Assembly (NCBI GenBank): GCA_945787445.1
Contig: CALZHT010000013.1
Coordinates: 1 to 54,078 of the forward strand
Reading direction: 5' to 3'
Source: an uncultured Desulfobulbaceae bacterium
GTDB taxonomy: Bacteria; Desulfobacterota; Desulfobulbia; Desulfobulbales; CALZHT01
Length of the DNA: 54,078 nucleotides
Shown here in pieces: positions 2-19,747 of this stretch (position 1 is the stretch's first letter; each line of letters starts with the position of its first letter). Both the position numbers and the translations under genes were made by a program. Under the pieces are notes generated by a model, which worked only from the letters and a program-made list of their open reading frames with translations, did not search any database and was not told the DNA's origin.

Positions 2-3000
2 GATGGCATTGATGACGATTGTGACGGAAGTACGGATGAGGACAACCCGGTTTGCTCCTGTGTCCCGACCGGTTTGGCGGACGACAATTGCGACGGTGTC
101 GACGATGATTGTAACGGCCCCGCCGATGACGCCTATGTTTCACAGGCAACGAGCTGCGGTATTGGTGTCTGCGCCTCGACCGGTTCCACCTCCTGTGTGA
201 ACGGCACAGAGCAGGACAGCTGCACCGCCGGTTCACCGACCGGTGCTGATAACGACTGTAATGGTCTCGATGAGAACTGCAACGGCGTAGCCGATGATGC
301 CTATGTTTCCCAGTCAACAAGCTGTGGTATTGGTGTCTGCGCCTCGACCGGTTCCACCTCCTGTGTGAACGGTGCAGAGCAGGACAGCTGCACTGCGGGT
401 ACACCATCCACTGAGATCTGCGACAACTTGGACAATAACTGCAACGGTACAGTTGACGAGAATCTTACCCGGGCGACGACCTGCGGTGTTGGTGAGTGTG
501 GTTCCACCGGAATCGAGACCTGCAGCGCCGGAACTTGGGGCGGCGATACCTGTACACCCGGCACCCCGACCGCCGAGGTCTGCGACGATCTTGATAATGA
601 CTGTGATGGTGTTATAGACAGCTTTTTCCGGACAACCACCTGCGGTGTTGGTGAGTGCGCCGGTAATACAGGGTCCCAGGCCTGTATGTATGGGGTCTGG
701 GGTACCGACAGCTGTGATCCTTTTGCCGGAGCGGGTATTGAAGGTCCAGGCTCTCAAGATCCGACCTGCAGCGATACCCTGGATAATGACTGCGACGGTT
801 TGACGGATATGAGCGATACCAATTGTCAGGATAATGTTGAAAACGACTGTTTTGACGGTATCGACAATGATGGCAACGGTCTTACCGATTGTGAAGATAT
901 AAATTGCTACGGTAGGACGAGCACTTCCTGCAGCACCGGCCAACTGGGAATCTGTGCCGCAGGAACGATTACCTGTCAGGGGGGGGGCGAGGTCTGTGTG
1001 GCAGACAACCAGCCCCAGGCAGAATTGTGTGACGGCCTGGATAATGACTGTGACGGCACCATAGACGGCACATCCCGGACAGTCTTCTGCGGAGTCGGCG
1101 CCTGTGCAGGCAATAGCGGCACTGAGACCTGTACCGCCGGAACCTGGGGGAATTCCACCTGTGATCCTTTAGCCGGCGCAACTGCAGAAACCTGTGACAA
1201 TATCGACAACAACTGTGACGGTTCCATAGATGAAGGGTTGACAGAACCCACCACCTGCGGTGTTGGTGCGTGTTCGGCAACCGGAAGCAGAACCTGTTCC
1301 GCCGGCAACTGGACCGATACCTGCACGCCGGGCAGCCCGTCCGCTGAAGTCTGCGACGGTCTTGACAATGACTGTGACGGCACGATTGATGGCATTACCC
1401 GGGCCACCACCTGCGGAGTTGGCGAGTGCGGTTCCACCGGTATGGAGACCTGCACCGGCGGCACCTGGGGCGGCAATACCTGCACACCCGGCGCCCCCTC
1501 TTTTGAGGTCTGCGACAATCTGGACAACAACTGCGACGGTGCAGTGGATGAGAACCTGACCAGAACAAGCACTTGCGGGATCGGTGAGTGCGGTGCCACC
1601 GGAATCGAGACCTGTACAAGCGGCGTCTGGGGTGATGATACCTGTACACCGGGTTCTCCTTCTGCTGAAGTGTGCGACGGTCTGGACAATGACTGCGACG
1701 GCGCAGTTGACGGCATAATCCGCCCGTCAACCTGCGGGGTCGGCGAATGTACCGGTAACAGCGGTACGGAGACCTGTGCGGACGGGATCTGGGGCAACGA
1801 CACGTGCGATCCGCTGGCCGGCTCTATTCCTGAAGGTCCGATGGGTAGTCCGACCTGCGGCGACGGTCTGGACAACGACTGCGACGGCATAACCGATATG
1901 GCTGATCCCAGCTGTTCAGCCCCGGTTCCCTTCACCTATACCGAGGATTTCGAAGCCGGTGTGCTGGGACCGGAATGGACCACCAACAGCACGGCCCAGG
2001 GCCGCATCGAGGTGACCACCGCCAATTCTCCCTGTAACGGCGGCTATCATGTCACCATGGATGACTACGCATCAGGCGGCATGCTTTCTCTGAACGAACT
2101 GGTGCTGACCTATGATTTGGCCGGGGCGAGCGGTGTAACCTTGAGCTTCTCTCACAAGGATTTAGGTGATGAAGACCATGTGCTTCCTGATACCTTTACC
2201 GGTTCCGCCAACGGCGACGGTGTTTCCGTAAGTGCCGACGGCGTAACCTGGTACAAGGTGCAGGGCCTTGTCACTGCCGACGGTATCAGCCCTTCCTGCC
2301 GGCAGTTTGTCGTGGATCTGGATGCGGCAATTACTGCGGCCGGTATCAACTATAACGACACCTTCATGATCAAGTTCCAGCAGTTTGATAACTATCCGAT
2401 CACCGGTGGCGACGGCATGGCCTTTGATGATATAGAAATCAGCGGCGCCTCCACCGGCGGCGGGTCCTGCACCGACGGTCAGACCCGGGCCACCACCTGC
2501 GGCACCGGTGAGTGTGCTGCCATCGGCATGGAGACCTGCACCGGCGGCGTTTGGGGTGGTGATACCTGTACGCCTGGTACCCCGTCTACCGAGGTCTGCG
2601 ATAACCTGGACAACAACTGTGACGGTGCCATTGATGAAAACCTGACCCAGCCTACCACTTGCGGGGTGGGCGAGTGTGCCGGCAATACCGGCATCGAAAC
2701 CTGCTCGGCCGGCGCCTGGGGTGGTGACACCTGTGATCCGTTTGCCGGGGCTACAGCAGAAACCTGCGACGGTCTGGACAACAACTGCGACGGTACGGTG
2801 GATGAAGGCTGCGGTTGTACTGAGGGTGCAACCCGGCCCACGGTGTGCGGTTACGGTGAGTGCGCTTCCACCGGTATCGAGACCTGTTCCGGCGGTATGT
2901 GGGTCGGTGATACCTGTACACCGGGCACGCCGTCCGCTGAAATATGCGACGGTCTTGATAATGACTGTAACGGTACAGTGGATGACGGCCTGACCCGGGC

Positions 3001-6000
3001 AACCACATGCGGGGTTGGCGAGTGCGGTTCCACCGGAATTGAGACCTGCACCGGCGGCGCCTGGGGTGGAGATACCTGCACACCCGGCACTCCGTCCGCC
3101 GAAGTTTGCGATAACCTGGACAATAACTGTGACGGCTCCGTTGACGAGAACCTGACCAGATCAAGCAGTTGCGGTGTCGGCGAGTGCGGTTCCACCGGAA
3201 TTGAGACCTGTACAGCCGGGGTTTGGGGCAATGATACCTGTGTACCCGGTACCCCGTCTTCTGAAGTATGCGACGGTCTTGACAATGACTGCGACGGCAC
3301 GGTTGACGGCATGACCCAGGCAACCACCTGCGGGATCGGTGAATGTGCAGGCAACACCGGTATGGAGACCTGCAGCGCCGGTGCCTGGGGCAACGACACC
3401 TGCGATCCGCTGGCCGGTTCATCGGCTGAAGGTCCGCAAGGCCATGCAACCTGTGGCGACGGTCTGGACAACGACTGCGACGGCAGCACCGATATGGCTG
3501 ATCCCAGCTGTTCGGCCCCGGTTCCCTTCACCTATCTGGAAGATTTCGAATCCGGGGTGCTGGGAGCGGAATGGACCACCAACAGCACGGCCCAGGGCCG
3601 CATTGAGGTGACTACAACAAGTGCACCCTGTAACGGCAGCTATCATGTCACCATGGATGACTCCAGATCAGGCGGCTTGATTTCTCTGAACGAGCTGGTG
3701 CTGGCCTATGATCTGGCCGGGGCGAGCGGCGTGACCTTGAGCTTCTATCATAAGGAATACGGTGATGAAGACCATGTCCTGCCTGCTACCTTTACCGGCT
3801 CCGCCAATGGCGACGGTGTTTCCGTAAGTGCCGACGGCGTAACCTGGTACAAGGTGCAGGGTCTTGTCGGTGCTGACGGCATCAGTCCTTCCTGCCGGCA
3901 GTTTGTCGTGGATCTGGATGCGGCAATTGCCACGGCCGGCATCAGCTATACCGACACCTTCATGATCAAGTTCCAGCAGTTTGATAATTACCCGATTACA
4001 GCCGGAGACGGCATGGCCTTTGATGATATAGAGATCAACGGCCTCTCCTCCGGCGGCGGCGGGCCCTGCACCGACGGGCAGACCCGGCCGACAACATGCG
4101 GCACCGGCGAGTGCGCTTCAGCCGGCATGGAGACCTGTTCCGGCGGCGTCTGGGGCGGTGATACCTGTACACCCGGTACCCCGTCTTCCGAAGTGTGCGA
4201 TAACCTGGATAACAACTGCGACGGTGCCATTGACGAAGGTCTGACCAGAGGCACCACCTGCGGTGTAGGCGAATGTGCCGGTAATACCGGTGTGGAGACC
4301 TGCGCAGCCGGTGCCTGGGGTGGTGACACCTGTGATCCCTTTGCCGGCGCCACCGTAGAAACCTGTGATGGATTGGACAATAACTGTGACGGTACGGTGG
4401 ATGAGGGCTGCGGTTGCACCGAGGGCCAGACCCGGCCGACCATCTGCGGCACCGGTGAGTGCTCTTCCACCGGTATCGAGACCTGTTCCGGCGGTATGTG
4501 GGTTGGTGACACCTGTACACCCGGCACTCCATCCGCCGAAGTGTGCGACGGTCTTGATAATGACTGTAACGGCACCGTGGATAACGGCCTGACCCGGGCC
4601 ACCACCTGCGGGGTTGGCGAGTGCGGTTCCACCGGAGTTGAGACCTGTTCTAGCGGCGTTTGGGGCGGTGATACCTGTACACCTGGCATCCCGTCCGCCG
4701 AAGTGTGCGATAACCTGGATAACAACTGCGATGGTTCAGTGGATGAGAACCTGACCAGGTCAAGCAGCTGCGGGGTCGGCGAGTGCGGTTCCACCGGAGT
4801 TGAGACCTGTACAGCCGGGATTTGGGGTAATGATACCTGTATACCCGGCAGCCCGTCCGCTGAAGTGTGCGACGGTCTGGACAATGACTGTGACGGTAGT
4901 ATTGACGGCATGACCCGTGCTTCTACCTGCGGTGTCGGCGAATGTGCCGGCAATACCGGTGTGGAGACCTGCAGCGCCGGTGCCTGGGGCAACGATACCT
5001 GCGATCCGCTGGCCGGCTCATCGGCTGAAGGTCCGCAAGGCGATGCAACCTGTGGCGACGGTCTGGACAACGACTGTGACGGCAACACCGATATGACCGA
5101 TCCCAGTTGTTCGGCCCCGGTTCCCTTCACCTATCTGGAAGATTTCGAGTCCGGTGTGCTGGGAGCGGAATGGACCACCAACAGCACGGCCCAGGGCCGC
5201 ATTGAGGTGACTACAACAAGCACACCTTGTAATGGCAGCTATCATGTCACCATGGATGACTATGCATCAGGCGGCTTGCTTTCTCTGAACGAACTGGTGC
5301 TGACCTATGATCTGGCCGGAGCGAGCGGGGTGACCTTGAGCTTCTCTCACAAGGAATACAGTGATGAAGACCATGTCATGCCAGCTACCTTTACAGGTTC
5401 CGCCAATGGTGACGGTGTGGCCGTAAGTGCCGACGGCGTGATATGGTATAAGGTGCAGGGTCTTGTTGGTGCTGACGGCATCAGTCCTTCCTGCCAGCAG
5501 TTTGTCGTGGATCTGGACGCTGCGATTGTTGCGGCCGGCATCAGCTATAGCGACACCTTCATGATCAAGTTCCAGCAGTTTGATAATTACCCGATCACAG
5601 CAGGAGATGGCTTTGCCTTTGATGATATCCAGCTTACCGGTGAGAATTCAAGCGGCGGACCCTGCATCGATGGTCAGACCCGTCCCACAACCTGCGGCAC
5701 CGGGGAGTGCGCTTCCACAGGAATTGAGACCTGTTCCAGCGGCATTTGGACTGGTGATACCTGTACTCCCGGCACTCCATCTGCCGAGATCTGCGATGGT
5801 CTGGATAACAACTGTGACGGTTCTGTTGATGAAGGTCTGACCAGAGGAACCACCTGCGGAGTCGGTGAGTGTGCCGGCAATACCGGCATGGAAACCTGTG
5901 CGGCCGGTGCTTGGGTTGGTGATACCTGTGATCCTTTTGCAGGTGCAACCGCCGAGGTTTGCGACAACCTGGATAACAACTGCAACGGCAGTGTTGATGA

Positions 6001-9000
6001 AGGTCTGACCAGAGGTACTTCTTGTGGTGTCGGCGCCTGTACCGGCAATACCGGCATTGAGACCTGTACAGCCGGTACCTGGGTTGGTGATACCTGTGAT
6101 CCGTTTGCCGGCGCCACTACTGAAGTGTGCGAAGGCAGTGTTGATGAGAATTGCGACGGTACGGTGGATGAGGGCTGCGGTTGCACCGACGGCCAAACCA
6201 GACCGACAAACTGCGGTACCGGTGAGTGCGCTTCTACAGGAATAGAGACATGTTCCGGAGGTGTCTGGGGCGGTGATACGTGCACACCTGGAGCCCCTTC
6301 TGCAGAAATCTGCGACAACCTGGACAATAACTGCGATGGTTCCGTGGATGAAAGTCTGACCAGAGGCACCACTTGCGGTGTCGGCGCCTGTGCCGGCAAT
6401 ACCGGTATTGAGACCTGTACGGCCGGAACCTGGGGTGGTAATACCTGTGATCCGTTTGCCGGCGCCACCGCTGAAGTCTGTGACGGCAGTGTTGATGAGA
6501 ACTGTGACGGTACGGTGGATGAGGGCTGCGGCTGCACAGACGGTCAGACCCGTGCCACCACCTGCGGCACCGGTGAGTGCGCTTCCACAGGAATCGAGAC
6601 CTGTTCCGGCGGCGTCTGGGGCGGTGATACCTGTACACCCGGCACTCCGTCCGCTGAAGTCTGCGATAACCTGGATAACAACTGCGACGGTTCTACAGAT
6701 GAAGGCCTGACCAGGGGGACCTCCTGCGGTGTCGGCGCCTGTGCCGGCAATACCGGCCTTGAGACCTGTACGGCCGGTACCTGGGGTGGTGATACCTGTG
6801 ATCCGTTCGCCGGCGCCACCGCGGAAGTTTGCGACGGCATTGTTGATGAAAACTGCGACGGTACGGTGGATGAAGGCTGCGGCTGCACCGACGGCCAAAC
6901 CCAGCCCTGCGGTACTTCTGATGTCGGCGAATGCCAACTCGGTACCCAGACGTGTTCCGGCGGAACCTGGGGAGCTTGTATCGGCAATATCGAGCCGGCC
7001 ACGGAAACCTGCGATGGTCTGGACAACAACTGTGACGGCACTGTTGACGAGAATCTGACCAGGGCCACCACCTGCGGTGTTGGTGAGTGTGCCGGCAATA
7101 CCGGCATGGAAACCTGTACGGCAGGAACATGGGGTAGTGACACCTGCGATCCTCTGGCCGGAGCAACCGCCGAAGTCTGCGATAACCTTGACAACAACTG
7201 TGACGGTTCCGTGGATGAAGGCCTGACCAGAGGCACCACCTGCGGTGTTGGCGCCTGTGCCGGTAATACCGGTATGGAGACCTGTACAGCCGGAACATGG
7301 GGTAGTGACACCTGTGATCCGTTTGCCGGCGCCACCGCGGAAGTCTGTGACGGCAGCATTGATGAGAACTGCGACGGTACGGTGGATGAAGGCTGCGGCT
7401 GCACCGACGGCCAGACCCGGCCGACGACCTGCGGCACCGGTGAGTGTGCTTCCACAGGAATAGAGACCTGTTCCGGCGGCGTCTGGGGCGCTGACACCTG
7501 TATACCGGGCGCTCCGTCAGCAGAAGTCTGCGATAATCTTGATAACAACTGCGACGGCACTATCGATGAGAATCTGACCAGGTCAAGCATCTGTGGTGTC
7601 GGCGAGTGCAGCTCCACAGGTATTGAGACCTGTGCCGCCGGCATCTGGGGCAGCGATACCTGTATACCGGGTGCACCTTCCGCTGAGGTCTGTGACAACT
7701 TGGACAACAACTGCGACGGCACTATCGATGAGAACCTGACCAGGGCAACCAACTGCGGTGTGGGTGAATGCGGTTCCACCGGAATTGAGACCTGTATTTC
7801 CGGCATCTGGGGTAGTGATACCTGTATGCCGGGTGCGCCGTCAACAGAAGGTCCCTCAGGAGATCCGACCTGCAGTGATACCCTGGATAATGACTGCGAC
7901 GGTATGACAGATGCAGGTGACAGTGATTGTCAAGGTAGCACGCCATTTGATCAGCTTGATGACTTTGCCGGGCTGGCCAACGGCACCCGACCGAACTTCG
8001 GTAACTGGACCGGTGTCAACGGCTCCGACGGCACCATGGGATGGGTTGTCCTTTCCGGATCAACCGGCTCCAGCAGTACCGGGCCGACGGCCGGCAATCC
8101 TGGTCCCTATGTCTACCTGGAAAGTTCAGCTTCCAGCCAGACATATGGTGTCGGAGTAACAGCCGGAAGTTCCCAGTACATTGTCAGCAATGTTATTGAT
8201 GCATCGCAATACAGTTCATTGTCTTTTACCTTTGATTGGAACATGAATGTCGACAACAATGCCGATGCGTCATTACATGTCGATGTCTGGAACGGCAGTG
8301 GTTGGGATCTAGATGTCAGCGGCGGTGCAATCAACACTGGCAATAATGCTGATGTCTGGGTAAACGAAGCGGCAATTGATCTGTCCGGATACAACAACAC
8401 CGATTTCCAGGTTAGAATCAGATACGTTGTCGGCAGCGGCACCATCTATCGCAACGATGTTGCGGTTGATAACCTCCATATCACAGGGACAGTTGGCCCC
8501 TGCACTGATGGGCAAACACGCCCAACCACTTGTGGTGTTGGCGAATGCGGATCCACAGGAATCGAGACCTGCACAGCCGGTGTATGGGATGGCGATACTT
8601 GTTCACCCGGCGCCCCGTCGACGGAAATCTGCGATAATCTGGACAACGACTGTGACGGCACTATAGATGGGATGATCAGAGGAACCACCTGCGGTGTTGG
8701 TGCATGTGCCGCTAATACCGGAACCGAGATCTGTACAGCAGGTGCCTGGGGTAACGATACTTGTGACCCGCTTGCAGGAGCTGTTACTGAAGGACCTTCC
8801 GGTGACCAGACCTGTACCGATTCCCTTGACAATGACTGCGACGGACTGACCGATGCAGGTGACAGTGATTGTCAGGGTAGTAGTTATCCACCTGCCTGCG
8901 ATGCCGGCAATGGCAATGATACCATTGAAACACCGCTGGATAGGGCTGAGTGGGATGACGGGGGTAATGATGGCGAGTTGGAAATCCGGGCCATCAATAA

Positions 9001-9214
9001 CATCGGCACAAGTAACGGTACGCAATTCTTTTTCACATATAGTGAAACCGGCAGTACTGTGTATCCCATGCCGTATGATGGGAGTAACGAATTTAGATTC
9101 AGACAAACCGGCTTTCCATATTCAAACGGCGCAACAGTGACGGTCTGGTCAGAGGATGGTAGCGGCAATATCCAAGATGTTGCCTGCGATGAACCGGTAG
9201 AAGACAAGACCTGA
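2..9214 (+). CDS. Giant Cys/Asp-rich repeat surface protein (5' partial)
   Basis: The frame is open from base 2, so the true start lies upstream; at least 3070 residues are visible. Most of it is tandem units of about 45-55 residues, each with a CGxGEC..TG.ETC segment, a W-G-x-D-TC segment and an LDN[ND]C[DN]G..D motif; I count about 40 of the last. This Asp-rich motif resembles the metal-binding motif annotated in MopE-type proteins and is probably Ca-binding (family knowledge). Three near-identical beta-rich modules of about 180 residues interrupt the repeats (from 1922, 3518 and 5117), and a different MAM/concanavalin-like module lies at about 7940-8500. The last 105 residues (about 8890-9214) match the C-terminus of the cytochrome at 16354-17457. 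Almost every repeat has four or more cysteines, implying heavy disulfide bonding outside the cytoplasm. The exact function is unknown; an adhesin, sheath or matrix protein is inferred. Confidence 0.9.
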   Translation, partial: DGIDDDCDGSTDEDNPVCSCVPTGLADDNCDGVDDDCNGPADDAYVSQATSCGIGVCASTGSTSCVNGTEQDSCTAGSPTGADNDCNGLDENCNGVADDAYVSQSTSCGIGVCASTGSTSCVNGAEQDSCTAGTPSTEICDNLDNNCNGTVDENLTRATTCGVGECGSTGIETCSAGTWGGDTCTPGTPTAEVCDDLDNDCDGVIDSFFRTTTCGVGECAGNTGSQACMYGVWGTDSCDPFAGAGIEGPGSQDPTCSDTLDNDCDGLTDMSDTNCQDNVENDCFDGIDNDGNGLTDCEDINCYGRTSTSCSTGQLGICAAGTITCQGGGEVCVADNQPQAELCDGLDNDCDGTIDGTSRTVFCGVGACAGNSGTETCTAGTWGNSTCDPLAGATAETCDNIDNNCDGSIDEGLTEPTTCGVGACSATGSRTCSAGNWTDTCTPGSPSAEVCDGLDNDCDGTIDGITRATTCGVGECGSTGMETCTGGTWGGNTCTPGAPSFEVCDNLDNNCDGAVDENLTRTSTCGIGECGATGIETCTSGVWGDDTCTPGSPSAEVCDGLDNDCDGAVDGIIRPSTCGVGECTGNSGTETCADGIWGNDTCDPLAGSIPEGPMGSPTCGDGLDNDCDGITDMADPSCSAPVPFTYTEDFEAGVLGPEWTTNSTAQGRIEVTTANSPCNGGYHVTMDDYASGGMLSLNELVLTYDLAGASGVTLSFSHKDLGDEDHVLPDTFTGSANGDGVSVSADGVTWYKVQGLVTADGISPSCRQFVVDLDAAITAAGINYNDTFMIKFQQFDNYPITGGDGMAFDDIEISGASTGGGSCTDGQTRATTCGTGECAAIGMETCTGGVWGGDTCTPGTPSTEVCDNLDNNCDGAIDENLTQPTTCGVGECAGNTGIETCSAGAWGGDTCDPFAGATAETCDGLDNNCDGTVDEGCGCTEGATRPTVCGYGECASTGIETCSGGMWVGDTCTPGTPSAEICDGLDNDCNGTVDDGLTRATTCGVGECGSTGIETCTGGAWGGDTCTPGTPSAEVCDNLDNNCDGSVDENLTRSSSCGVGECGSTGIETCTAGVWGNDTCVPGTPSSEVCDGLDNDCDGTVDGMTQATTCGIGECAGNTGMETCSAGAWGNDTCDPLAGSSAEGPQGHATCGDGLDNDCDGSTDMADPSCSAPVPFTYLEDFESGVLGAEWTTNSTAQGRIEVTTTSAPCNGSYHVTMDDSRSGGLISLNELVLAYDLAGASGVTLSFYHKEYGDEDHVLPATFTGSANGDGVSVSADGVTWYKVQGLVGADGISPSCRQFVVDLDAAIATAGISYTDTFMIKFQQFDNYPITAGDGMAFDDIEINGLSSGGGGPCTDGQTRPTTCGTGECASAGMETCSGGVWGGDTCTPGTPSSEVCDNLDNNCDGAIDEGLTRGTTCGVGECAGNTGVETCAAGAWGGDTCDPFAGATVETCDGLDNNCDGTVDEGCGCTEGQTRPTICGTGECSSTGIETCSGGMWVGDTCTPGTPSAEVCDGLDNDCNGTVDNGLTRATTCGVGECGSTGVETCSSGVWGGDTCTPGIPSAEVCDNLDNNCDGSVDENLTRSSSCGVGECGSTGVETCTAGIWGNDTCIPGSPSAEVCDGLDNDCDGSIDGMTRASTCGVGECAGNTGVETCSAGAWGNDTCDPLAGSSAEGPQGDATCGDGLDNDCDGNTDMTDPSCSAPVPFTYLEDFESGVLGAEWTTNSTAQGRIEVTTTSTPCNGSYHVTMDDYASGGLLSLNELVLTYDLAGASGVTLSFSHKEYSDEDHVMPATFTGSANGDGVAVSADGVIWYKVQGLVGADGISPSCQQFVVDLDAAIVAAGISYSDTFMIKFQQFDNYPITAGDGFAFDDIQLTGENSSGGPCIDGQTRPTTCGTGECASTGIETCSSGIWTGDTCTPGTPSAEICDGLDNNCDGSVDEGLTRGTTCGVGECAGNTGMETCAAGAWVGDTCDPFAGATAEVCDNLDNNCNGSVDEGLTRGTSCGVGACTGNTGIETCTAGTWVGDTCDPFAGATTEVCEGSVDENCDGTVDEGCGCTDGQTRPTNCGTGECASTGIETCSGGVWGGDTCTPGAPSAEICDNLDNNCDGSVDESLTRGTTCGVGACAGNTGIETCTAGTWGGNTCDPFAGATAEVCDGSVDENCDGTVDEGCGCTDGQTRATTCGTGECASTGIETCSGGVWGGDTCTPGTPSAEVCDNLDNNCDGSTDEGLTRGTSCGVGACAGNTGLETCTAGTWGGDTCDPFAGATAEVCDGIVDENCDGTVDEGCGCTDGQTQPCGTSDVGECQLGTQTCSGGTWGACIGNIEPATETCDGLDNNCDGTVDENLTRATTCGVGECAGNTGMETCTAGTWGSDTCDPLAGATAEVCDNLDNNCDGSVDEGLTRGTTCGVGACAGNTGMETCTAGTWGSDTCDPFAGATAEVCDGSIDENCDGTVDEGCGCTDGQTRPTTCGTGECASTGIETCSGGVWGADTCIPGAPSAEVCDNLDNNCDGTIDENLTRSSICGVGECSSTGIETCAAGIWGSDTCIPGAPSAEVCDNLDNNCDGTIDENLTRATNCGVGECGSTGIETCISGIWGSDTCMPGAPSTEGPSGDPTCSDTLDNDCDGMTDAGDSDCQGSTPFDQLDDFAGLANGTRPNFGNWTGVNGSDGTMGWVVLSGSTGSSSTGPTAGNPGPYVYLESSASSQTYGVGVTAGSSQYIVSNVIDASQYSSLSFTFDWNMNVDNNADASLHVDVWNGSGWDLDVSGGAINTGNNADVWVNEAAIDLSGYNNTDFQVRIRYVVGSGTIYRNDVAVDNLHITGTVGPCTDGQTRPTTCGVGECGSTGIETCTAGVWDGDTCSPGAPSTEICDNLDNDCDGTIDGMIRGTTCGVGACAANTGTEICTAGAWGNDTCDPLAGAVTEGPSGDQTCTDSLDNDCDGLTDAGDSDCQGSSYPPACDAGNGNDTIETPLDRAEWDDGGNDGELEIRAINNIGTSNGTQFFFTYSETGSTVYPMPYDGSNEFRFRQTGFPYSNGATVTVWSEDGSGNIQDVACDEPVEDKT
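1922..5650 (+). repeat. 1.6-kb higher-order tandem repeat within the giant gene
   Basis: The three beta-rich modules start at 1922, 3518 and 5117, so the period is 1596 and then 1599 bp. Each complete period carries one module followed by six Cys/Asp-rich units. The third period departs from the pattern after the module. Modules two and three are nearly identical at DNA level over long stretches, indicating recent duplication or gene conversion. Such repeats may also be collapsed or expanded by assembly. Confidence 0.85.
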
Positions 9215-9508: not shown

Positions 9509-9636
9509 CTGATGCCACGTTGCATGCAAAGAGGTAACAAGGCGGCAAGGAGAAGGCTCCGGAGGCGTATATGAAATACGTCGAGGAAGCCGACGACGCA
9601 GCCAACAAAGTTAGAATTTGAATGCGACTTGGCATG
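9509..9636 (+). mobile_element. MITE-like element, copy 1 (128 bp)
   Basis: The ends are imperfect inverted repeats: CTGATGCCACGTTGCATGC at the left and TTTGAATGCGACTTGGCATG at the right. The interior contains GAGGTAACAAGGC and a 40-base core around GAGGCGTATATGAAATACG. The same element occurs inverted at 47653-47811. It has no coding capacity for a transposase. It sits about 30 bp before the start of the protease-cytochrome gene and after the giant gene's terminator, so it occupies that gene's promoter/leader region. Confidence 0.7.
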
Positions 9637-9665
9637 AAATCCTTTTCGAGCGTAAAGGTGAAATT

Positions 9666-12416
9666 ATGTTCTTAAGATTTCCAGCTATCGTAACGGCCGT
9701 TTTTACAACTCTTTCACTATTCTGCCTGCCCATGGACTTGCAGGCCCAGGCCCGGGAGCGGTCAGTGATTGTGGTGTTCAAGCCGCAATCGCAATTAACC
9801 GAACATGTCTTTATCCGCCGGGCAAAAGGGGTGGCTCGCCGGGTACTGCGCCATAGACTGGGGCTTTCTGAACGGGCCATAGTTCAGGGGGCGGGCGGCG
9901 CTGTAGACCGCACCTTTCATATCATTCCCGCCATGAAAGTAAAAATTCCCGAGCGGGCGATCAACCGTTTACGGAACAATCCGCGCATCGCCTATATAGC
10001 AGACGATGCTCAGGTCATGGCAATTGAACCGGAGGTCGTATCAGCACAGGCCACTCCGGAAGAATATGCCAACTCCTGGGGCGTACAGCGTATAGGCAGC
10101 GAGATCCCCCACAGCCTTAATTTTACCGGAAGCGGCGTCAGGATTGGTGTGATTGATTCAGGTATTAATTATAACCACATTGACCTGGCGGCAAACTATT
10201 TTGGCGGCACCAATATCATCTATAATACGACGGATCCTTTTGACGACACCACCAATAAGCATGGCAGCCATGTTTCCGGCATTATCGCCGGTATTGATAA
10301 CGGCACCGGTGTGGTCGGCGTGGCGCCGGAAGCCATGCTCTATGCGGTGAAGAGTTTGGATGGGGCAGGTTTCGGCACGGTTGGTAATATTATCGATGGT
10401 GTACAATGGGCGGTGGACAACGGCATGGATATCGTCAATATGAGCGTCGGCCTGGGTGTGTTCAACCAGGCCTTACAGGATGTCTGCGATGCGGCCGACA
10501 ATGCGGGACTGCTCCTGGTTGCGGCAGCTGGTAACAGCTTTGGCCAGGCGCTGTTTTATCCGGCGCTCTTTCCCTCTGTTATGGCCGTGACCGCTACAAC
10601 CTCGATTGATGTTATAGCGGGAATGTCGCCGCGCGGTCCGGAAGTGGAACTTTCTGCGCCGGGCACCGCGATATATTCCACCACATCCACCACCACCACG
10701 GATAACTACGGCTTTTTGTCCGGCACTTCCCAGGCTGCTCCCCACGCTGCCGGCACCGCCGCCTTATTGCTCTCCGCCGGAATTGCCGACAGCAACGGCA
10801 ACGGGAGGGTAAATGATGAGGTGCGCACGATTTTACAGAATACGGCGGAGGATTTGGGAGATGCCGGCAGAGACGACGTTTTCGGTTTCGGTCTTGTTGA
10901 TGCGGAAGCGGCAATCCTCGAAGCGCTGGCCTTACAGACTTCTATGCCGCCGGCGCGTCAGAACATCGGCATGCCTGATACGGTTTTCGATCAAATGGCT
11001 GAGGCGGATTGCCGGTTCTGTCATAGAAATGACGGGACTGCCCCGGACGGGGTGCCGGTAAATATCACCCAGCTTAATCACCGGCATCACAACCTGATCG
11101 GAACTGTGGTTCCCCCGGATACGATAGCACCGAATCCGGCAGACCCAGAAGGTAACTATGAATGTTTCACCTGCCATACTGCGGTGTGGAATGATGTCCT
11201 CGGGGCCATACAATTCGAGCCGTTTAATGATTGTACCCAGTGCCATGTGCAAACCGGCAGTCTTACGGTCCATCACGCCACTGACCTGGCGCAAGGTGGA
11301 GCATGTGCCGCATGCCATGGCTATATTGTCGATCCAACCACCCCGCCTGACCAACGGTCGGAAATTCGCACTTACCCGGGTAGTTCCGTTACTCCATGGC
11401 CGAGTGACAAACCGGACGGCGCCCTCGCTGATCCCGCTGATCCCACTTTAGTGCAGGGCATGGCCGGCAACTGCGATTATTGCCATAACAACCAGGAAAA
11501 TACTCTCCCTGACTTTATCGGCGGTATTCTCGATCCGGTGAGCGGCATCAATATATACAGAAATGAAGATACCCACCACTCCACCGGCTTTGGCGATGAT
11601 CCTACCAAATGCACCTGGTGCCATTATGCAACACCACCGACAGATACAAGATTGCAGCCGCTCATCAGGCCCTGTCAGACATGCCATGATGTCAGTACGC
11701 TTCATAATATTCAGGTTGATTCAGACGGTGACGGCGAGGTTAATCCCGGCACGGAAACCGCCTACTACGGTCATATCGGCGACCAAAATGATTGCTGGGG
11801 GTGTCATGCCGGTGTAAGCCCGATGGCTGCCCCGGAAAGCGGCCCCACCATTCCGACTATTCATAGTATTAATGCAACCGCCAGTCTGATTGAAGGCCAG
11901 ACCGTAACCCTCATAATCAGTGGCGCAAGTTTAACCAATAATATTCTCAATCCTGCAACCGGCGCCTACGACATCACCTTTACCAGCGACCTGGCAATCA
12001 CCGATGACAGCGGCAATACCACTGTGCTTGAGCCCAACAGCCTAACTGAAAGCACCATGGAGGTTGATGTCACCTTGGGGGCAGGCAACTACAGGATTGC
12101 CGCGGTTAAAGGCCGGCATAGAAGTAATACCATGGTCATTACCGTTGCCGATGCAGTTTCATCCCTGTACGCGATCTGCAGAGGAACTGCTGTTACAGTG
12201 AAGGGCGAGGGCTTCTCCATGTATGTCGACGTAGTGAATTCAGGCACCGGCATAACCGCTGTTGACCGTGCCGGCACCCCGGTGGACTGCCAGGTTGAGT
12301 CCTGGACTGATAATATCATCCTTTCTACATGCAGTGCCTGTCCCTCCACAGTGACTGTCGATTCAATCTGGGGTGCCACCGTTAAACGGACCCGTATAAT
12401 TACTCGCCCACGCTAG
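9666..12416 (+). CDS. Subtilisin-like serine protease fused to an octahaem cytochrome domain
   Basis: The protein has 916 residues. I chose the ATG at 9666 because it follows an AAAGGTG ribosome site and begins directly with a signal peptide (about residues 1-28); an ATG 48 bases upstream lies partly in the MITE end. Residues about 30-120 look like an inhibitor/propeptide. The peptidase S8 domain follows, with triad D164 (VIDSG), H199 (KHGSHVSG) and S355 (SGTSQAAPHAAG). From about residue 449 to 711 there are eight CxxCH haem-binding motifs: CRFCH, CFTCH, CTQCH, CAACH, CDYCH, CTWCH, CQTCH and CWGCH. A beta-rich, IPT-like C-terminal domain ends the protein. The triad and haem motifs are all intact, so both halves should be active. 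Export through Sec and haem attachment by the cytochrome c maturation machinery are expected. The haem part resembles the cytochrome at 16354-17457. The substrate is unknown; the giant neighbour is an obvious candidate. Confidence 0.9.
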   Translation: MFLRFPAIVTAVFTTLSLFCLPMDLQAQARERSVIVVFKPQSQLTEHVFIRRAKGVARRVLRHRLGLSERAIVQGAGGAVDRTFHIIPAMKVKIPERAINRLRNNPRIAYIADDAQVMAIEPEVVSAQATPEEYANSWGVQRIGSEIPHSLNFTGSGVRIGVIDSGINYNHIDLAANYFGGTNIIYNTTDPFDDTTNKHGSHVSGIIAGIDNGTGVVGVAPEAMLYAVKSLDGAGFGTVGNIIDGVQWAVDNGMDIVNMSVGLGVFNQALQDVCDAADNAGLLLVAAAGNSFGQALFYPALFPSVMAVTATTSIDVIAGMSPRGPEVELSAPGTAIYSTTSTTTTDNYGFLSGTSQAAPHAAGTAALLLSAGIADSNGNGRVNDEVRTILQNTAEDLGDAGRDDVFGFGLVDAEAAILEALALQTSMPPARQNIGMPDTVFDQMAEADCRFCHRNDGTAPDGVPVNITQLNHRHHNLIGTVVPPDTIAPNPADPEGNYECFTCHTAVWNDVLGAIQFEPFNDCTQCHVQTGSLTVHHATDLAQGGACAACHGYIVDPTTPPDQRSEIRTYPGSSVTPWPSDKPDGALADPADPTLVQGMAGNCDYCHNNQENTLPDFIGGILDPVSGINIYRNEDTHHSTGFGDDPTKCTWCHYATPPTDTRLQPLIRPCQTCHDVSTLHNIQVDSDGDGEVNPGTETAYYGHIGDQNDCWGCHAGVSPMAAPESGPTIPTIHSINATASLIEGQTVTLIISGASLTNNILNPATGAYDITFTSDLAITDDSGNTTVLEPNSLTESTMEVDVTLGAGNYRIAAVKGRHRSNTMVITVADAVSSLYAICRGTAVTVKGEGFSMYVDVVNSGTGITAVDRAGTPVDCQVESWTDNIILSTCSACPSTVTVDSIWGATVKRTRIITRPR

Positions 12417-13107: not shown

Positions 13108-15899
13108 ATGAAGAAACTATTAGCAATCACTATTATGGTATGGCTAATGATCTGCAGCGTAAGTGCAAGCCAGGCAGGCGAGCCGGAAATTTATGACTGG
13201 GGATTTAATATCGATGGCACTTCCTATTGTATTGATGCCTGTGATTTTGATTCGGCTGATAATAGCGATCCACTTAGCCTTCTACCCTCCTTTATCGATA
13301 TTTCAGAATTTGACCTTGCAATGGATTTTGGTGCCTCTGTTGGCACTGGCATTGGAACAATCACGATAACTCTTTGCACTGATACCTTGGACCCATTGTG
13401 TTTAGAGCCTGTAACTCCTGGGGAGCATACTGTGGTGGTATTTCTCAACCATGATATCTTTGACCTCGATCCTACTCCTGATCATGTATATTTTGTGAAT
13501 GAAACCGGAGCCATCTTTGGCACCCCTGAGCTGGGACAGAAATGGGAGATAGATGATCCTGATTTTGGCAATATTATTAATCACTTTTTTATCACGGAAA
13601 GAAGTGATCAAACTATAGCAGGTTCTCAGCTTGACAATGATGTTTTTGATGGGTTTACGGATACGGAGAGCGATGTCTCAATGGCAATGAGCTGGGATTT
13701 TTCTCTTGCCGCCGGTGAACAAGCTGTCATCACAGTGGTTGCGGATCTGGCTGCACCACCTACTCCACCTTATCTGACTCAAACTGATATGTATGACGAC
13801 ACTAATATCTATCTTTCAAGTTCTATCGAATTTATCGGTGGACAACCACAAAGCGAGGTTGACTGCTTAGACGGGATAGATAACGACGGTGATGGCCAGA
13901 CTGACTGTGCGGATTCTGATTGTAATACAGATCCGAACTGTGTCGAATGTCTAGTCGATGCAGACTGCAATGACGGTCTTGCCTGTAATGGCCCGGAAAC
14001 CTGCGATGCCAACGGCAGTTGCCAGGCCGGTACAGCATTAGTCTGTGATGATGGCAATGCCTGTAACGGTATTGAGACCTGTGATGATGCGGTCGGCTGT
14101 GTGGAAGGCACAGCACCAGTCTGTGATGACGGCAATGCCTGTAATGGTATCGAGACCTGTGATGATGCGGTTGGGTGTGTAGACGGCACAGCACTGGTTT
14201 GTGATGATGGTCAGTTCTGTAATGGAGTAGAGACCTGTGACGCGACAGGCGGTTGCCAGGCCGGAACACCTCCATGCCCCGAGGGTCAGTGCAACGACAG
14301 TTTGGATGCCTGTGTCGAATGTAGAACCGATGCAGACTGTAATGACGGTCTTGCCTGTAATGGCACGGAAACCTGTGATGCCAGCGGCAGTTGCCAGGCC
14401 GGCACAGCGTTAGTCTGCGATGACGGCAATGCCTGTAACGGTATTGAGACCTGTGATGATGCAGTTGGGTGTGTAGACGGCCCAGCACTGGTTTGTGATG
14501 ATGGCAATGCCTGTAATGGCGTTGAGACCTGTGATGATGCGGTAGGCTGTGTGGAAGGCACATCACCAGTCTGTGATGACGGCAATGCCTGTAATGGAAT
14601 GGAGACCTGTGATGATGCGGTAGGCTGTGTAGACGGCACAGCGCCGGTCTGTGATGACGGTCTGTTCTGTAACGGGGTAGAAACCTGTGACGCTGCAGCC
14701 GGTTGCCAGCCCGGCACATCGCCATGTCCCGATGGCAAGTGCAACGATAATTTGGATGCCTGTGTCCAGTGTGATACAGATGCCGACTGCGATGACAATC
14801 TTGCCTGTAACGGCACGGAAACCTGTGATACCAGCGGTAATTGCCAGGCCGGTACACCGCTGGTCTGCGATGATGGCAATGCCTGTAATGGAATGGAGAC
14901 CTGTGATGATGCGGTAGGCTGTGTAGACGGCACAGCACCAGTCTGTGATGACGGTCTGTTCTGTAACGGGGTAGAGACCTGTGACGCTGCAGCCGGTTGC
15001 CAGCCCGGCACATCGCCATGTCCCGATGGCAAGTGTGACCGCCATGTCCCGATGGCAAGTGTGACGAGAATCTGGATGCGTGTGTTGATTGTAGAGCCGA
15101 TGCCGACTGCGATGACAATCTTGCCTGTAACGGCACGGAAACCTGTGATACCAGCGGTAATTGCCAGGCCGGCACGGAGTTAGTCTGTGATGACGGCAAT
15201 GCCTGTAATGGTGTTGAGACCTGTGATGATGCGATTGGCTGTGTGGACGGCACAGCGCTAGTCTGTGATGATGGTCAGTTCTGTAATGGAGTAGAGACCT
15301 GTGACGCGACAGACGGTTGCCAGGCCGGAACACCTCCATGCCCAGGCGGTCTCTGTGATGATAACCTGGATACGTGTGTCGAGTGCGAACCAGGTGCAAC
15401 CCAGGGATGTGATACTGGTAAGGCGGGTGTCTGCGATGCGGGTATTCAGACCTGCGGCGCCGATGGCTTCTGGGGCGGTTGTGTGCAGAATACCCAATCA
15501 TCCACCGAGATTTGTGGCGACTCCTTAGACAACGACTGCGACGGTACGATCGATTGCAATGATTTTGATTGCAGTTTTAATGAAGCTTGCACGATCGACG
15601 AATGCTCTTCCCTGAACCGGGAGGCTTGCAAGAAGAGCGATACTTGCAGATGGGACTGGAAAAATAAAATTTGTACTGTAGATATCGATGATAAAGACGA
15701 CAGCGACGACAGTGACGACAGCGACGACAGTGACGACAGTGACGACAGTGACGACAGCGACGACAGCGACGACACTGATCACGACGATGACGACCATGAC
15801 TATGATGATGAGGAATGCTCCGACTTAGACAAGGATGATTGCAGAAATACCAAAGGATGTTATTGGTATAGATATAGAGGTGTCTGCAAGGAGATCTAG
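13108..15899 (+). pseudogene. Secreted Cys/Asp-rich repeat protein, frameshifted by a 26-bp duplication
   Basis: The start at 13108 has a strong GGGGGAGG site and a signal peptide (about residues 1-23). A non-repetitive N-domain of about 230 residues follows, then an Asp-rich metal-binding-like motif near 13857, then many units of the type VCDDGNACNG.ETCDDAVGC. In the current sequence the frame runs into unrelated residues after 15039 and stops at 15183. The correct sequence resumes in another frame from 15066 to 15899. Without the tandem duplication at 15014-15065 there would be a single frame of about 920 residues. The last part contains an LDNDCDG motif, a run of about eight Ser-Asp-Asp units (15702-15776), an Asp/His-rich stretch and a final Cys-rich segment. 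The gene is either a pseudogene, phase-variable, or intact with an assembly error. It belongs with the giant protein upstream by composition, but its repeats are different. Confidence 0.85.
15014..15065 (+). repeat. 26-bp perfect tandem duplication causing a frameshift
   Basis: The 26 bases at 15014-15039 recur exactly at 15040-15065. Because 26 is not a multiple of three, reading leaves frame at the second copy. Deleting one copy rejoins the two halves as ...CPDGKCDENLDACVDC..., which matches the neighbouring repeat units. Confidence 0.95.
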
Positions 15900-16353: not shown

Positions 16354-17457
16354 ATGATACGGGCAAAATTGTTTTGGGCGGCAATTTTATTGTTGATTGT
16401 GTCGGCAATGGCATTAGGTGATTTTTTACCTTATTCTTTCATTGGATTCAGTCCTGGATCAGCCATTGCCCTTGATTTAACGGAAGGCGACTGCAGATGT
16501 TGCCATGATACAGGGGTGCCGGACCGGCACCATGCTCTTGTCCCAAGAGCAAACTATCAATGCACTGACTGCCATGAGATGGTCTGGAATGCAGTGTTGC
16601 AGCAGTATGAGCCCACAGTGGTCAGAGACTGCCTCCTATGCCATGTAGCATCATTGGCAGACCGGCACCATATTTCTGCTCAGAATAACAATGCGGAATG
16701 TATGAGTTGTCATGCCCTGGTATGGGACGACGCCACCCAGTCCTATTTTATTCAATTTACTAATAATTGCCAAGTGTCAGTCCCGGCAGATGATCAAGTA
16801 ACTGCACAATCGACCGACCCGAATTCCGGACAAACGGGGGACCAGGTATCCGCACAAGCAGTGAATCATTATGATGTACATACTGTTGGGGCTTCAGCGG
16901 ATTGTATAGCATGTCATCAGCAAAATCTTATTGACGAGCATACCCTGCCGACAGGCGACCAGCGCTGCGTTCTCTGCCACAACAGTAATATCCTTCAGGT
17001 GCAAGATGCTCTTGCCCAGAGAAATTTAGACTGTATAGCATGCCATGTTGCAGTCCCGCATAACAATTACTGTGGTCAGGGCAACGGCAATGATACTATC
17101 TTCCTACCGATCAATGAAGCTGAATGGGATTACGATGATGGTGAAGCCGAGCTGGAAATAGAGGTTGATAACATAAATGGCAACAGCAACGGCACAAGGC
17201 TCTATTTCATGTATAGTGAGACAGGTAGTGAAGTCTATCCCTTGTCCTGGGACTATGAGGATAAAAGCTGGGAATTCGAAGCGGAAGGCCTGCCCTATGC
17301 AGACGGAGCAACAGTAACTGTCTGGTCAGAGGATGGTAATGGCACAATTCAGGATATTGTTTGCTCGCAGCATGTAACTTTAGAAGGCGGCTATTGGCAA
17401 GATGACAGCGATTGGGCCTATGATAGCGAAAGTGACAGCGAAGATGATAGCGATTGA
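16354..17457 (+). CDS. Secreted heptahaem c-type cytochrome with shared C-terminal domain
   Basis: The protein has 367 residues. The start at 16354 follows GGGGAAGGGGAG; a long hydrophobic signal segment spans about residues 7-40. Seven CxxCH motifs are present: CRCCH, CTDCH, CLLCH, CMSCH, CIACH, CVLCH and CIACH. HH pairs and further histidines between them are possible distal ligands. The first three haem sites and their spacing (HRHH..L, NY.C..CH..VWN.VL) repeat those of the protease fusion at 9666-12416. A low-complexity Gln/Thr/Ala segment splits the haem region. From about residue 247 the protein has the same domain that ends the giant protein (GNGNDTI, AEW, YSETGS.VYP, GATVTVWSEDG). It ends in an Asp/Ser-rich tail. 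A role in extracellular or surface electron transfer is inferred. Confidence 0.9.
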   Translation: MIRAKLFWAAILLLIVSAMALGDFLPYSFIGFSPGSAIALDLTEGDCRCCHDTGVPDRHHALVPRANYQCTDCHEMVWNAVLQQYEPTVVRDCLLCHVASLADRHHISAQNNNAECMSCHALVWDDATQSYFIQFTNNCQVSVPADDQVTAQSTDPNSGQTGDQVSAQAVNHYDVHTVGASADCIACHQQNLIDEHTLPTGDQRCVLCHNSNILQVQDALAQRNLDCIACHVAVPHNNYCGQGNGNDTIFLPINEAEWDYDDGEAELEIEVDNINGNSNGTRLYFMYSETGSEVYPLSWDYEDKSWEFEAEGLPYADGATVTVWSEDGNGTIQDIVCSQHVTLEGGYWQDDSDWAYDSESDSEDDSD

Positions 17458-17671: not shown

Positions 17672-18523
17672 TTATTTTTTCAGCTTCTTCAATTCAGAGT
17701 CGATAATTTTTGAAAAACCGGCAACGCTTCTATTTTTCAGCTTGCGGCCATTGACGAAGATGGTGGGCGTGCCTCTGACTCCGGCCTTTTGGCCCTCCTG
17801 AACATCCTGCATCATTTTCTGTCGCAATTTTTCATCCTGTAAGTCCTTTTCAAAGCGTACCATATCCAGGCCTACTTCACCGGCCAGTTCCTTTATCTTC
17901 GCATCATTTAGCTTGTTGAAATTTTCAAAAAGCTTATCGTGGAACTCCCAGAATTTTCCCTGGCGATCAGCTGCCAGTGTTGCTATGGCAGCGGGCTGGG
18001 CAAATTTATGATTCCTGAGCGGGAAATTTTTAAAAACTAGATTAACGTCTTGCGGATATTTCTCAAGCACCTGCCTGAGTAAGGGAAGAACCCTTGCGCA
18101 GTAAGGTCATTGGAAATCGCTGAAAACAGTGATATTCACCGACGCATCTTTTGGCCCCTCGATCGGTGAGCCAGCCACAGTGAGTTGGACCACGAAATCC
18201 AGGGAGATGAGCTGGACATTCTTTTTTGTCTGGTCGGTAACGAACAACAGGTCGCCCTGTGGTGAGACCTCGATAAACTTTGCATCCTTTCCCACATCAA
18301 CAGTCCCTTTAACCTCCCCCTGAACAGAAAGAATCTGCACTTTACCGTCATCGGTCAGAATGTAAAAGGAACTCCCGTCCGCCGACACCGCAGTGTCGAT
18401 GGGCACGCCTTCAGCCTTGATGGTTTTCAGGACTTCCCATTCGACCCGAGCCTGGGCCCCGCCTCCCAATAGGGATGCGGCAAACGAGAATATTGTAAAA
18501 AATAACAAAATCCTATGCACCAT
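17672..18523 (-). CDS. DsbA-like thioredoxin-fold selenoprotein (Sec139, U-P-Y-C)
   Basis: It reads as one 283-residue protein if the TGA at 18107-18109 encodes selenocysteine. The start follows AAGGAGGAAACAG; a signal peptide spans about residues 1-25. Residues 27-120 contain two or three beta-propeller-like segments (VSADGSSFYIL, VSPQGDLLFV). The DsbA/thioredoxin-like domain (from about 130) reads FSDFQ-U-PYC, where the family normally has C-P-Y-C. Downstream it keeps the PLRNHKFAQPAA helix and the cis-proline loop RGTPTIFVNG. The frame on both sides of TGA is identical and the protein is fully conserved after it, arguing against a decayed gene. A candidate SECIS hairpin follows the TGA. 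It would be a periplasmic thiol-disulfide oxidoreductase or reductase. It lies convergent with Cys- and haem-rich exported proteins that would need such an enzyme. Confidence 0.88.
18070..18106 (-). promoter_or_regulatory. Candidate bacterial SECIS hairpin after TGA (DsbA-like gene)
   Basis: Starting right after the TGA, CCT..CTG...AAGGG pairs with CCCTT...CAG..AGG, with symmetrical internal loops and a TTCTT apical loop. The apex lies 16 bases beyond the TGA, within the distance expected for SelB binding. The loop lacks the classical G unless the top G-C pair opens, so this is a candidate only. Confidence 0.5.
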
Positions 18524-18686
18524 TCTGTTTCCTCCTTCTAATTTGAGAACATGGTTAGTAAACTATGTGCGAGAACTTCACCGTCCTCCATAACTCCATT
18601 GCCTTTAACCTTATTAATTAAATGACCTGCAACGCCCACTAGAACAGAAAATAATCTCCAGTTCAACCGATTTCTCTCAAGCAAAA

Positions 18687-19747
18687 AGGGACGTTCTTGC
18701 TTTATTGACTTAAGTAGTGATGCCTGATATATTCTGTCATGCCAAGAAAGCCTCGATTAGATATTCCGGGATTGTTGCAGCATGTTATTGTAAGGGGGAT
18801 TGAGAAGTGCAAAATCTTCCTTGATGATTACGACCGCAGGAGGTTTATCGATAGATTTTCTTCCCTGCTTGTCGAGACCGGCACGGAGTGTTTTGCCTGG
18901 TCTCTGATGCCCAACCATTTCCATCTACTTTTACGATGCAATAAGATAGAACTTTCCCGATTTATGCGAAGGCTTTTAACCGGTCATGCAGTTACATTTA
19001 ATCACCGGCACGACCGGTCCGGGCACCTTTTTCAAAACAGATACAAATCCATAATCTGTGAAGAGGATACCTATTTTCTGGAATTGGTCCGGTATATTCA
19101 TCTTAATCCTTTAAGGGCTGGTATGGTTCTGGAACTGGATGTTCTCGATAGCTATCCATGGAGTGGACATGCGGGCTTAATGGGCAAGCAAAAGCTTTCT
19201 GGGCAGGCAGTGGATGAAGTGCTGCTCCAATTTGGGAATAACCTTTCAGATGCCGGCTGGAAATATCGGCAATTTATTGCTGAAGGAGTTTCCCAAGGCC
19301 GACGCCCGGAACTAGTAGGCGGAGGTCTGCGCAGGAGTCAAAAGATTGCCGGCATAGAGGAGGAAATTGCGAGTCATGATTATCGTGTATTAGGAAGCAG
19401 CAGGTTCGTTGATAAACTTCGCCTGCAAGAGGGTTTTCAGTCAATTGTTATACCTAGATTCACTTTACCAGAAATACAGAAAATCGTTAGTGGTCTATTT
19501 AAAGTAGATCCCAAGGCTATCCTTTGGCGGACCAGAAAAAATTCTCCCTCCGAAGCAAGGGCGGTGTTCTGTTTTGTTGCCGCTCGTATGCTTGGTGTGT
19601 CGGCCACCGAGGTGGGAAAATTTCTTTCCATGGGGCCATCTTCAGTAAGTCGGGCCGTTCGGCGTGGTGAACTGATTTTACAGGATAGCTCAGTAGTTAA
19701 AAAGGGTCTGGACAGGGCGTTAAAGCAATAAAGCAAGAACGTCCCCT
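18687..19747 (+). mobile_element. REP-associated tyrosine transposase element with terminal inverted repeats
   Basis: The left end has GGGACGTTCTTGCTTTATTG at about 18688-18707. The right end has its complement, CAATAAAGCAAGAACGTCCC, at 19726-19745. The two 20-base arms match exactly. The right arm overlaps the transposase stop codon. The arms flank a single transposase gene, as in single-gene Y1/IS200-like REP-transposase elements. Confidence 0.8.
18739..19731 (+). CDS. REP-associated tyrosine transposase (RAYT, Y1 family)
   Basis: The protein has 330 residues. The N-terminal half has the Y1-transposase core: the PRKPRLDIPG start typical of RAYTs, the HUH metal motif in MPNHFHLLLR, and the catalytic tyrosine in YIHLNPLRAG. 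The C-terminal third (about 240-320) contains a DnaA-domain-IV-like helix-turn-helix (ARMLGVSATEVGKFL..SSVSRAVRRGE), a common extension of this family. No clear ribosome site precedes the ATG. RAYTs cut and join single-stranded DNA at hairpins; many are domesticated. The gene is intact and enclosed by inverted repeats. Confidence 0.92.
   Translation: MPRKPRLDIPGLLQHVIVRGIEKCKIFLDDYDRRRFIDRFSSLLVETGTECFAWSLMPNHFHLLLRCNKIELSRFMRRLLTGHAVTFNHRHDRSGHLFQNRYKSIICEEDTYFLELVRYIHLNPLRAGMVLELDVLDSYPWSGHAGLMGKQKLSGQAVDEVLLQFGNNLSDAGWKYRQFIAEGVSQGRRPELVGGGLRRSQKIAGIEEEIASHDYRVLGSSRFVDKLRLQEGFQSIVIPRFTLPEIQKIVSGLFKVDPKAILWRTRKNSPSEARAVFCFVAARMLGVSATEVGKFLSMGPSSVSRAVRRGELILQDSSVVKKGLDRALKQ

Follow-up and report, generated by a model that had tools for sequence, protein, structure and literature searches.

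The gene on the minus strand at positions 17672 to 18523 of the window (the whole stretch of DNA that was analysed, 54,078 nt long) is predicted to encode a selenoprotein, in which the in-frame UGA at codon 139 is almost certainly decoded as selenocysteine (Sec) by means of SelB and a hairpin with an AGGU loop, so that the DsbA/ScsC-like domain carries UPYC as its active site. Computation strongly supports the Sec codon, the SECIS element and the fold. Taken as a whole, the best explanation of the data, which is that of an exported thioredoxin-superfamily selenoprotein with a redox role and a propeller-based oligomeric form, is considered very likely, while the parts of this explanation differ in strength and are graded separately below. 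The features of the gene, all on the minus strand, are as follows.

18531..18537 (about), minus strand: Shine-Dalgarno-like AAGGAGG upstream of the ATG, read from the sequence
17672..18523, minus strand: selenoprotein gene of 283 codons with one in-frame UGA and a TAA stop, from the sequence and homologues
18521-18523, minus strand: ATG start
18449..18523, minus strand: putative signal peptide, about residues 1-25, ending in GGGAQA and followed by RV, assigned by eye from the sequence
18185..18451, minus strand: N-terminal domain, residues 25-113, two WD40/YVTN-type beta-propeller blades, from profile comparison with the PDB and a model
17675..18190, minus strand: DsbA/Thioredoxin_4 domain, residues 112-283, with the UPYC active site and G251-T252-cisP253, from Pfam, structure and conservation
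18107..18109, minus strand: UGA decoded as selenocysteine 139, the homologue codon being TGA or Cys
18081..18095 (about), minus strand: AAGGG-UUCUU-CCCUU, the first hairpin past the UGA, preceding the SECIS element, loop without G
18062..18079, minus strand: SECIS hairpin CUCAGGC-AGGU-GCUUGAG, 7 bp, loop AGGU, from fold energy, covariation and published rules
17672-17674, minus strand: TAA stop codon

When the TGA is read as Sec, a single protein of 283 amino acids is obtained, with U139 located within the sequence SDFQUPYC, while without recoding a mechanical list of open reading frames contains two pieces, 18107-18523 and 17672-18070. The first-pass annotation had proposed that the TGA at 18107-18109 takes the place of the first cysteine of a CPYC motif, that the frame is open on both sides of it, that a complete thioredoxin-like domain follows it and that gene calling with the standard code would cut the gene in two. 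Each of these statements was borne out, with the TGA at residue 139 and the domain recognized by the Pfam Thioredoxin_4 and DSBA profiles. The N-terminal sequence is signal-like, which makes export of the protein probable, and residues 1-20 of this region had low pLDDT in the structure model. The presence of two separate pieces in the list, together with the fragmented draft state of the source assembly (227 contigs), could suggest that the TGA is a true stop, created by a nonsense mutation in a pseudogene or by a sequencing error, and that the two frames are remnants. This explanation is very improbable and is refuted by the comparative data, because the TGA is shared by 68 distinct homologues, which belong to many genera, and lies only at the position of the catalytic cysteine, because the downstream domain is conserved, and because the SECIS element covaries and is lost in the Cys copies.

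The comparison rested on 113 distinct homologues that share the two-domain architecture, nearly all of them from one class, in which relatives are present in 249 of 258 genomes. The codon at the site of residue 139 was TGA in 68 homologues and a Cys codon in the other 45, and the earlier proposal that homologues should be checked for cysteine at this residue thus gave Cys or Sec in every case. The motif search alone assigned 67 TGA, 31 TGC and 13 TGT codons, and two copies that it missed were assigned separately, L211 as Sec (ULYC) and L161 as Cys (CAFC). No internal in-frame TGA was found elsewhere in the gene among the 113 homologues, and this alternation between TGA and Cys at one codon excludes chance. 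The frame also remains open under genetic codes 4 and 25, as would be expected if TGA had been reassigned to a standard amino acid throughout the genome. However, in the homologues TGA is found only at the redox cysteine and as the terminal stop, the tRNA with the UCA anticodon is tRNA-Sec, and the SECIS element, which follows the TGA and fades in the Cys copies, would be superfluous under a reassigned code, so that such a reassignment is the least probable of the explanations considered here. In plasmid records only distant relatives of the redox domain were found. As a separate observation, single open reading frames with tandem DsbA domains are present in L082 (SXOX01000152.1), from a proteobacterial metagenome-assembled genome (MAG), and in L087 (JALTMC010000139.1), from a Myxococcales MAG, with an in-frame TGA at the first active-site cysteine in all 3 domains of L082 and in 3 of the 5 of L087, so that the two are possibly triple-Sec proteins.

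The selenocysteine machinery, the absence of which had been named in the first-pass annotation as an argument against Sec, was detected in the genome of the gene's own assembly in all its parts, which were tRNA-Sec with the UCA anticodon (71.5 bits), SelB (356 bits), SelA (638 bits) and SelD (340 bits), the latter with its own in-frame TGA within the motif CGUAAKI. A second DsbA-like gene of the same genome (L018) has a TGA at the matching site, in the sequence DFQUPHC, and the UGA form is also present in a relative that can be cultured, Desulfopila sp. IMCC35008 (L054), in the sequence TDFEUPYC. In the class, 215 of 258 genomes have a SelB match above the cut-off, and hence missing machinery does not explain most of the Cys forms; among 15 genomes without full SelB that were rechecked, tRNA-Sec was found in 10. 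Two MAGs that are 92-94% complete (G156 and G157) carry the UGA form (L148 and L203), and neither tRNA-Sec nor SelB was detected in them, which is probably due to assembly gaps. Matches to the SelB profile of about 400 amino acids in several genomes were rejected; in the one case that was looked at, a 396-aa open reading frame lies beside one of 694 aa, and these sizes are typical of EF-Tu and EF-G.

The selenocysteine reading, which the first-pass annotation had put forward, is thus supported by the machinery and the homologues, and also by a SECIS element with covariation. The published rules for bacterial SECIS elements are a loop of 3-9 nt with a G at loop position 1 or 2, a spacing of 16-37 nt and an energy of at most -7.5 kcal/mol (PMC13188914). 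In the gene studied here the hairpin is formed by nucleotides 28 to 45 after the TGA, with a spacing of 34 nt from the UGA to the loop and an energy of -8.6 kcal/mol (z -3.1). The data showed that these rules hold for 61 of 67 Sec genes, for 1 of 44 Cys genes and for 7 of 265 background windows from the same genes (Fisher p = 5e-23 for Sec versus Cys genes). Even though six Sec genes miss the strict rules, all 67 have at least 6 of the 7 stem pairs and an AGGU or AGUU loop, while the Cys genes mostly have 2 to 5 pairs and varied loops, despite encoding similar peptides. Compensatory changes were observed at four of the seven stem pairs, and the covariation score was reached by none of 500 shuffles and was above those of all slid versions. 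The mean fold z was -2.83 in Sec genes versus -0.43 in Cys genes.

The hairpin directly after the TGA, probably the one that had been noticed earlier, does exist, at about 18081-18095, but it is not the best SECIS candidate. Conservation is seen instead in the hairpin that follows it, at 18062-18079, and the pairing of the first hairpin is less conserved than that of the second. In a 66-nt fold of the RNA of the source gene an alternative structure was preferred, the first hairpin competed with the SECIS hairpin, and the latter was outside the minimum-energy form. A genome-wide search with the pattern TGA N24-36 GCAGGTGC, which was left out of the evidence because it takes into account neither frame nor pairing, gave 42 matches versus 4 for the reversed control. 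An Rfam search of the window gave no match at the gathering threshold.

The part of the protein that contains U139 belongs to the DsbA/Thioredoxin_4 group, as shown by Pfam matches above the cut-off (Thioredoxin_4 6.2e-29, DSBA 2.9e-22), a thioredoxin fold with inserted helices and a cis-proline. The AlphaFold2 model of the protein had a pLDDT of 92.8 and a pTM of 0.81, and the closest structures to the catalytic domain, by VIA-align Z, were BdbD (3eu3, 23.4), Wolbachia alpha-DsbA2 (22.6) and ScsC proteins (21-22). The GT-cisPro sequence, which is common to five disulfide isomerases (PMC6450060), is conserved in the family (G in 62, T in 63 and P in 64 of 64 members). An N-terminal oligomerisation segment of at least 50 residues has been described as the most telling mark of isomerases versus oxidases (PMC6450060), and the N-terminal extension observed here is about 85 residues long. 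GT-cisPro and this extension are indicative features, from which we propose that the protein acts in the cell envelope as an oligomeric isomerase or reductase, and a function resembling that of the oligomeric isomerases (ScsC, alpha-DsbA2, DsbG) is more likely than that of the oxidase DsbA. Hence, the earlier description of a DsbA-like redox protein holds for the fold, as seen in Pfam and in the structure, but with regard to function an isomerase is likelier than a DsbA oxidase.

The propeller-like nature of the N-terminal extension, also suggested previously, was confirmed as two WD40/YVTN blades by PDB profile matches and by the model. The family profile matched 2ymu (8.6e-25), 1l0q (1.1e-24) and the two-bladed WD40 fragment 6r5x (0.0088), and a separate model of the N-terminal 89 residues (pLDDT 94.2) aligned to propeller chains with Z of about 10 over 74-86 residues. 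The extension is conserved throughout the family. Since a closed beta-propeller has at least four blades per chain, and only two are present here, a single chain could not close the ring. Two-bladed WD40 fragments make eight-bladed tetramers in the laboratory (PMC6805158). By analogy, the two-blade fragments of several copies could form one closed propeller and so give rise to an oligomeric isomerase, an idea that we regard as tentative and somewhat doubtful. Its more specific form, in which a homo-oligomeric isomerase would be built on a composite propeller of eight blades from four chains, or six from three, with several Sec sites around the ring, is a little more doubtful still. If this were true, it would be a natural propeller built from two-blade fragments that holds a selenoenzyme together as an oligomer, and the assembly of this domain would offer a new route to a multi-site disulfide isomerase.

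It is also possible, though rather unlikely, that the selenoprotein is a monomeric oxidase of the DsbA type, whose blades serve for binding of a substrate or partner rather than for oligomerisation. The DsbA-family fold, the naming of Sec relatives as DsbA-like in the literature (PMC1088965, PMC1794560) and a possible pairing of the blades with another protein are consistent with this explanation, but in place of V-cisP, which is frequent in oxidases, the protein has GT-cisP, and its 85-residue N-terminal domain points to isomerases. Moreover, VKOR was looked for in the genome and none was found.

In the preferred explanation, which is the isomerase, SelB and Sec-tRNA(UCA) almost certainly bind the AGGU hairpin that starts 28 nt past the UGA, and UGA 139 is decoded to give the UPYC active site. 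In the cell envelope the selenolate would be the attacking residue and would shuffle or reduce disulfides in exported proteins that are rich in Cys or contain haem, while Cys142 would resolve; this step is somewhat more probable than not. The two-blade fragments would bring several copies into one closed propeller, and the resulting oligomeric isomerase would be similar in principle to dimeric DsbC and DsbG and to trimeric ScsC. The electrons would probably come from a membrane protein of the DsbD/CcdA type, and three DsbD_TM matches are present in the genome.

The source gene lies alone, with a REP-type transposase gene on one side and, on the other, a multihaem cytochrome gene that is on the opposite strand, and examination of the neighbouring open reading frames agreed with the earlier remark that Cys- and haem-rich proteins are encoded nearby. 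One of them, the adjoining gene at 16354-17457, has 7 CxxCH motifs and weak matches to ExtN/ExtO of selenite reduction, and one ScsC binds copper(I) (PMC8900818), which could suggest that the selenoprotein serves in metal or selenite/tellurite handling or in maturation of the neighbouring multihaem cytochrome. This is improbable, because the cytochrome gene is on the opposite strand, the near neighbours were not found beside homologues, and the ExtN/ExtO scores were 21-22 bits versus a cut-off of 200. A YbeY-like gene follows downstream on the same strand, at a distance of about 1 kb, in 74 of 111 loci, often with a PhoH-like gene between it and the selenoprotein-family gene, and upstream in many relatives there are trigger-factor/ClpP/ClpX-like genes (all these names rest on inspection of the sequences). 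The source copy is outside this shared neighbourhood, and therefore no operon partner is proposed for it. A promoter and terminator scan gave nothing informative, and no inverted repeats of at least 12 bases were found.

Other genes of the window, all on the plus strand, were also observed. At 74-9214 there is a 3046-aa open reading frame with about 20 Cu-binding MopE-type repeats, and at 9618-12416 a subtilase (S8) domain is fused to a multihaem cytochrome region in a single protein. Two open reading frames with Cys-rich repeats, 13108-15183 and 15243-15899, look like one gene split by a frameshift, as judged from the continuation of the repeat into the second. The transposase gene adjoining the selenoprotein gene, at 18739-19731, encodes a Y1 transposase of the REP-associated type joined to the C-terminal helix-turn-helix domain of DnaA.

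The exchange between Sec and Cys was followed on a tree of 112 proteins, made by a quick method with the Sec/Cys residue masked, which needed 24 switches, at least 13 of them forced by strongly supported branches. The Cys copy L163 (G114:C1) is nested in a Sec clade and has a perfect SECIS hairpin, and it is likely that its TGA became TGC only recently and that its SECIS is a relic. Three other Cys copies, L152, L166 and L207, are near Sec copies in the tree and have kept the SECIS in part, suggesting that, like L163, they arose by recent changes from Sec to Cys. With one class, SelB in most genomes and at least 13 switches, the family is a natural experiment on the retention and loss of Sec, and in these bacteria many genes for exported redox proteins would each be cut into two false genes by callers that use the standard code.

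DsbA-like and DsbG-like selenoproteins with UxxC were described by Zhang and Gladyshev in 2005 and 2006 and are still included in current tables (PMC1088965, PMC1794560, PMC13188914), so the principle is not new; in the deep-Sep study, 22-46 selenoprotein genes are given for each of three Desulfobulbia genomes. These UxxC proteins, also from deltaproteobacteria, resemble the present family in their Dsb domain of thioredoxin fold, in which Sec occupies the first position of the active site, while no propeller-blade extension, and no account of a large Desulfobulbales family with repeated Sec/Cys switching, was found in those papers. The less ordinary feature is the conserved two-blade extension, an architecture for which no description was found in the main texts of the largely open-access literature that was searched. 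The best NCBIfam match, over the redox domain of all 64 members scanned, was NF041057, the Rcas_1661 family thioredoxin-like (seleno)lipoprotein, with a score of 78.8 bits against a cut-off of 190, which places the protein outside this equivalog; its N-terminal domain is outside the match, and no lipobox was seen in the protein. Bacillus BdbD was the best single structural match (1.9 A over 171 residues), but it is a Cys enzyme whose solved chain has only 186 residues and lacks the propeller-blade domain. ScsC of Proteus mirabilis and Caulobacter, Wolbachia alpha-DsbA2 and BcfH, which are among the closest folds (Z 20-23), have an N-terminal oligomerisation segment before the catalytic domain, and ScsC and alpha-DsbA2 share GT-cisP; on the other hand, these are Cys and not Sec enzymes, and for their N-termini trimerisation segments, not propeller blades, have been described. 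The N-terminal domain instead shares two four-stranded blades with 1l0q, 2ymu and 6r5x, while it differs from WD40/YVTN propellers in that each chain has no more than two blades and is joined to a redox domain.
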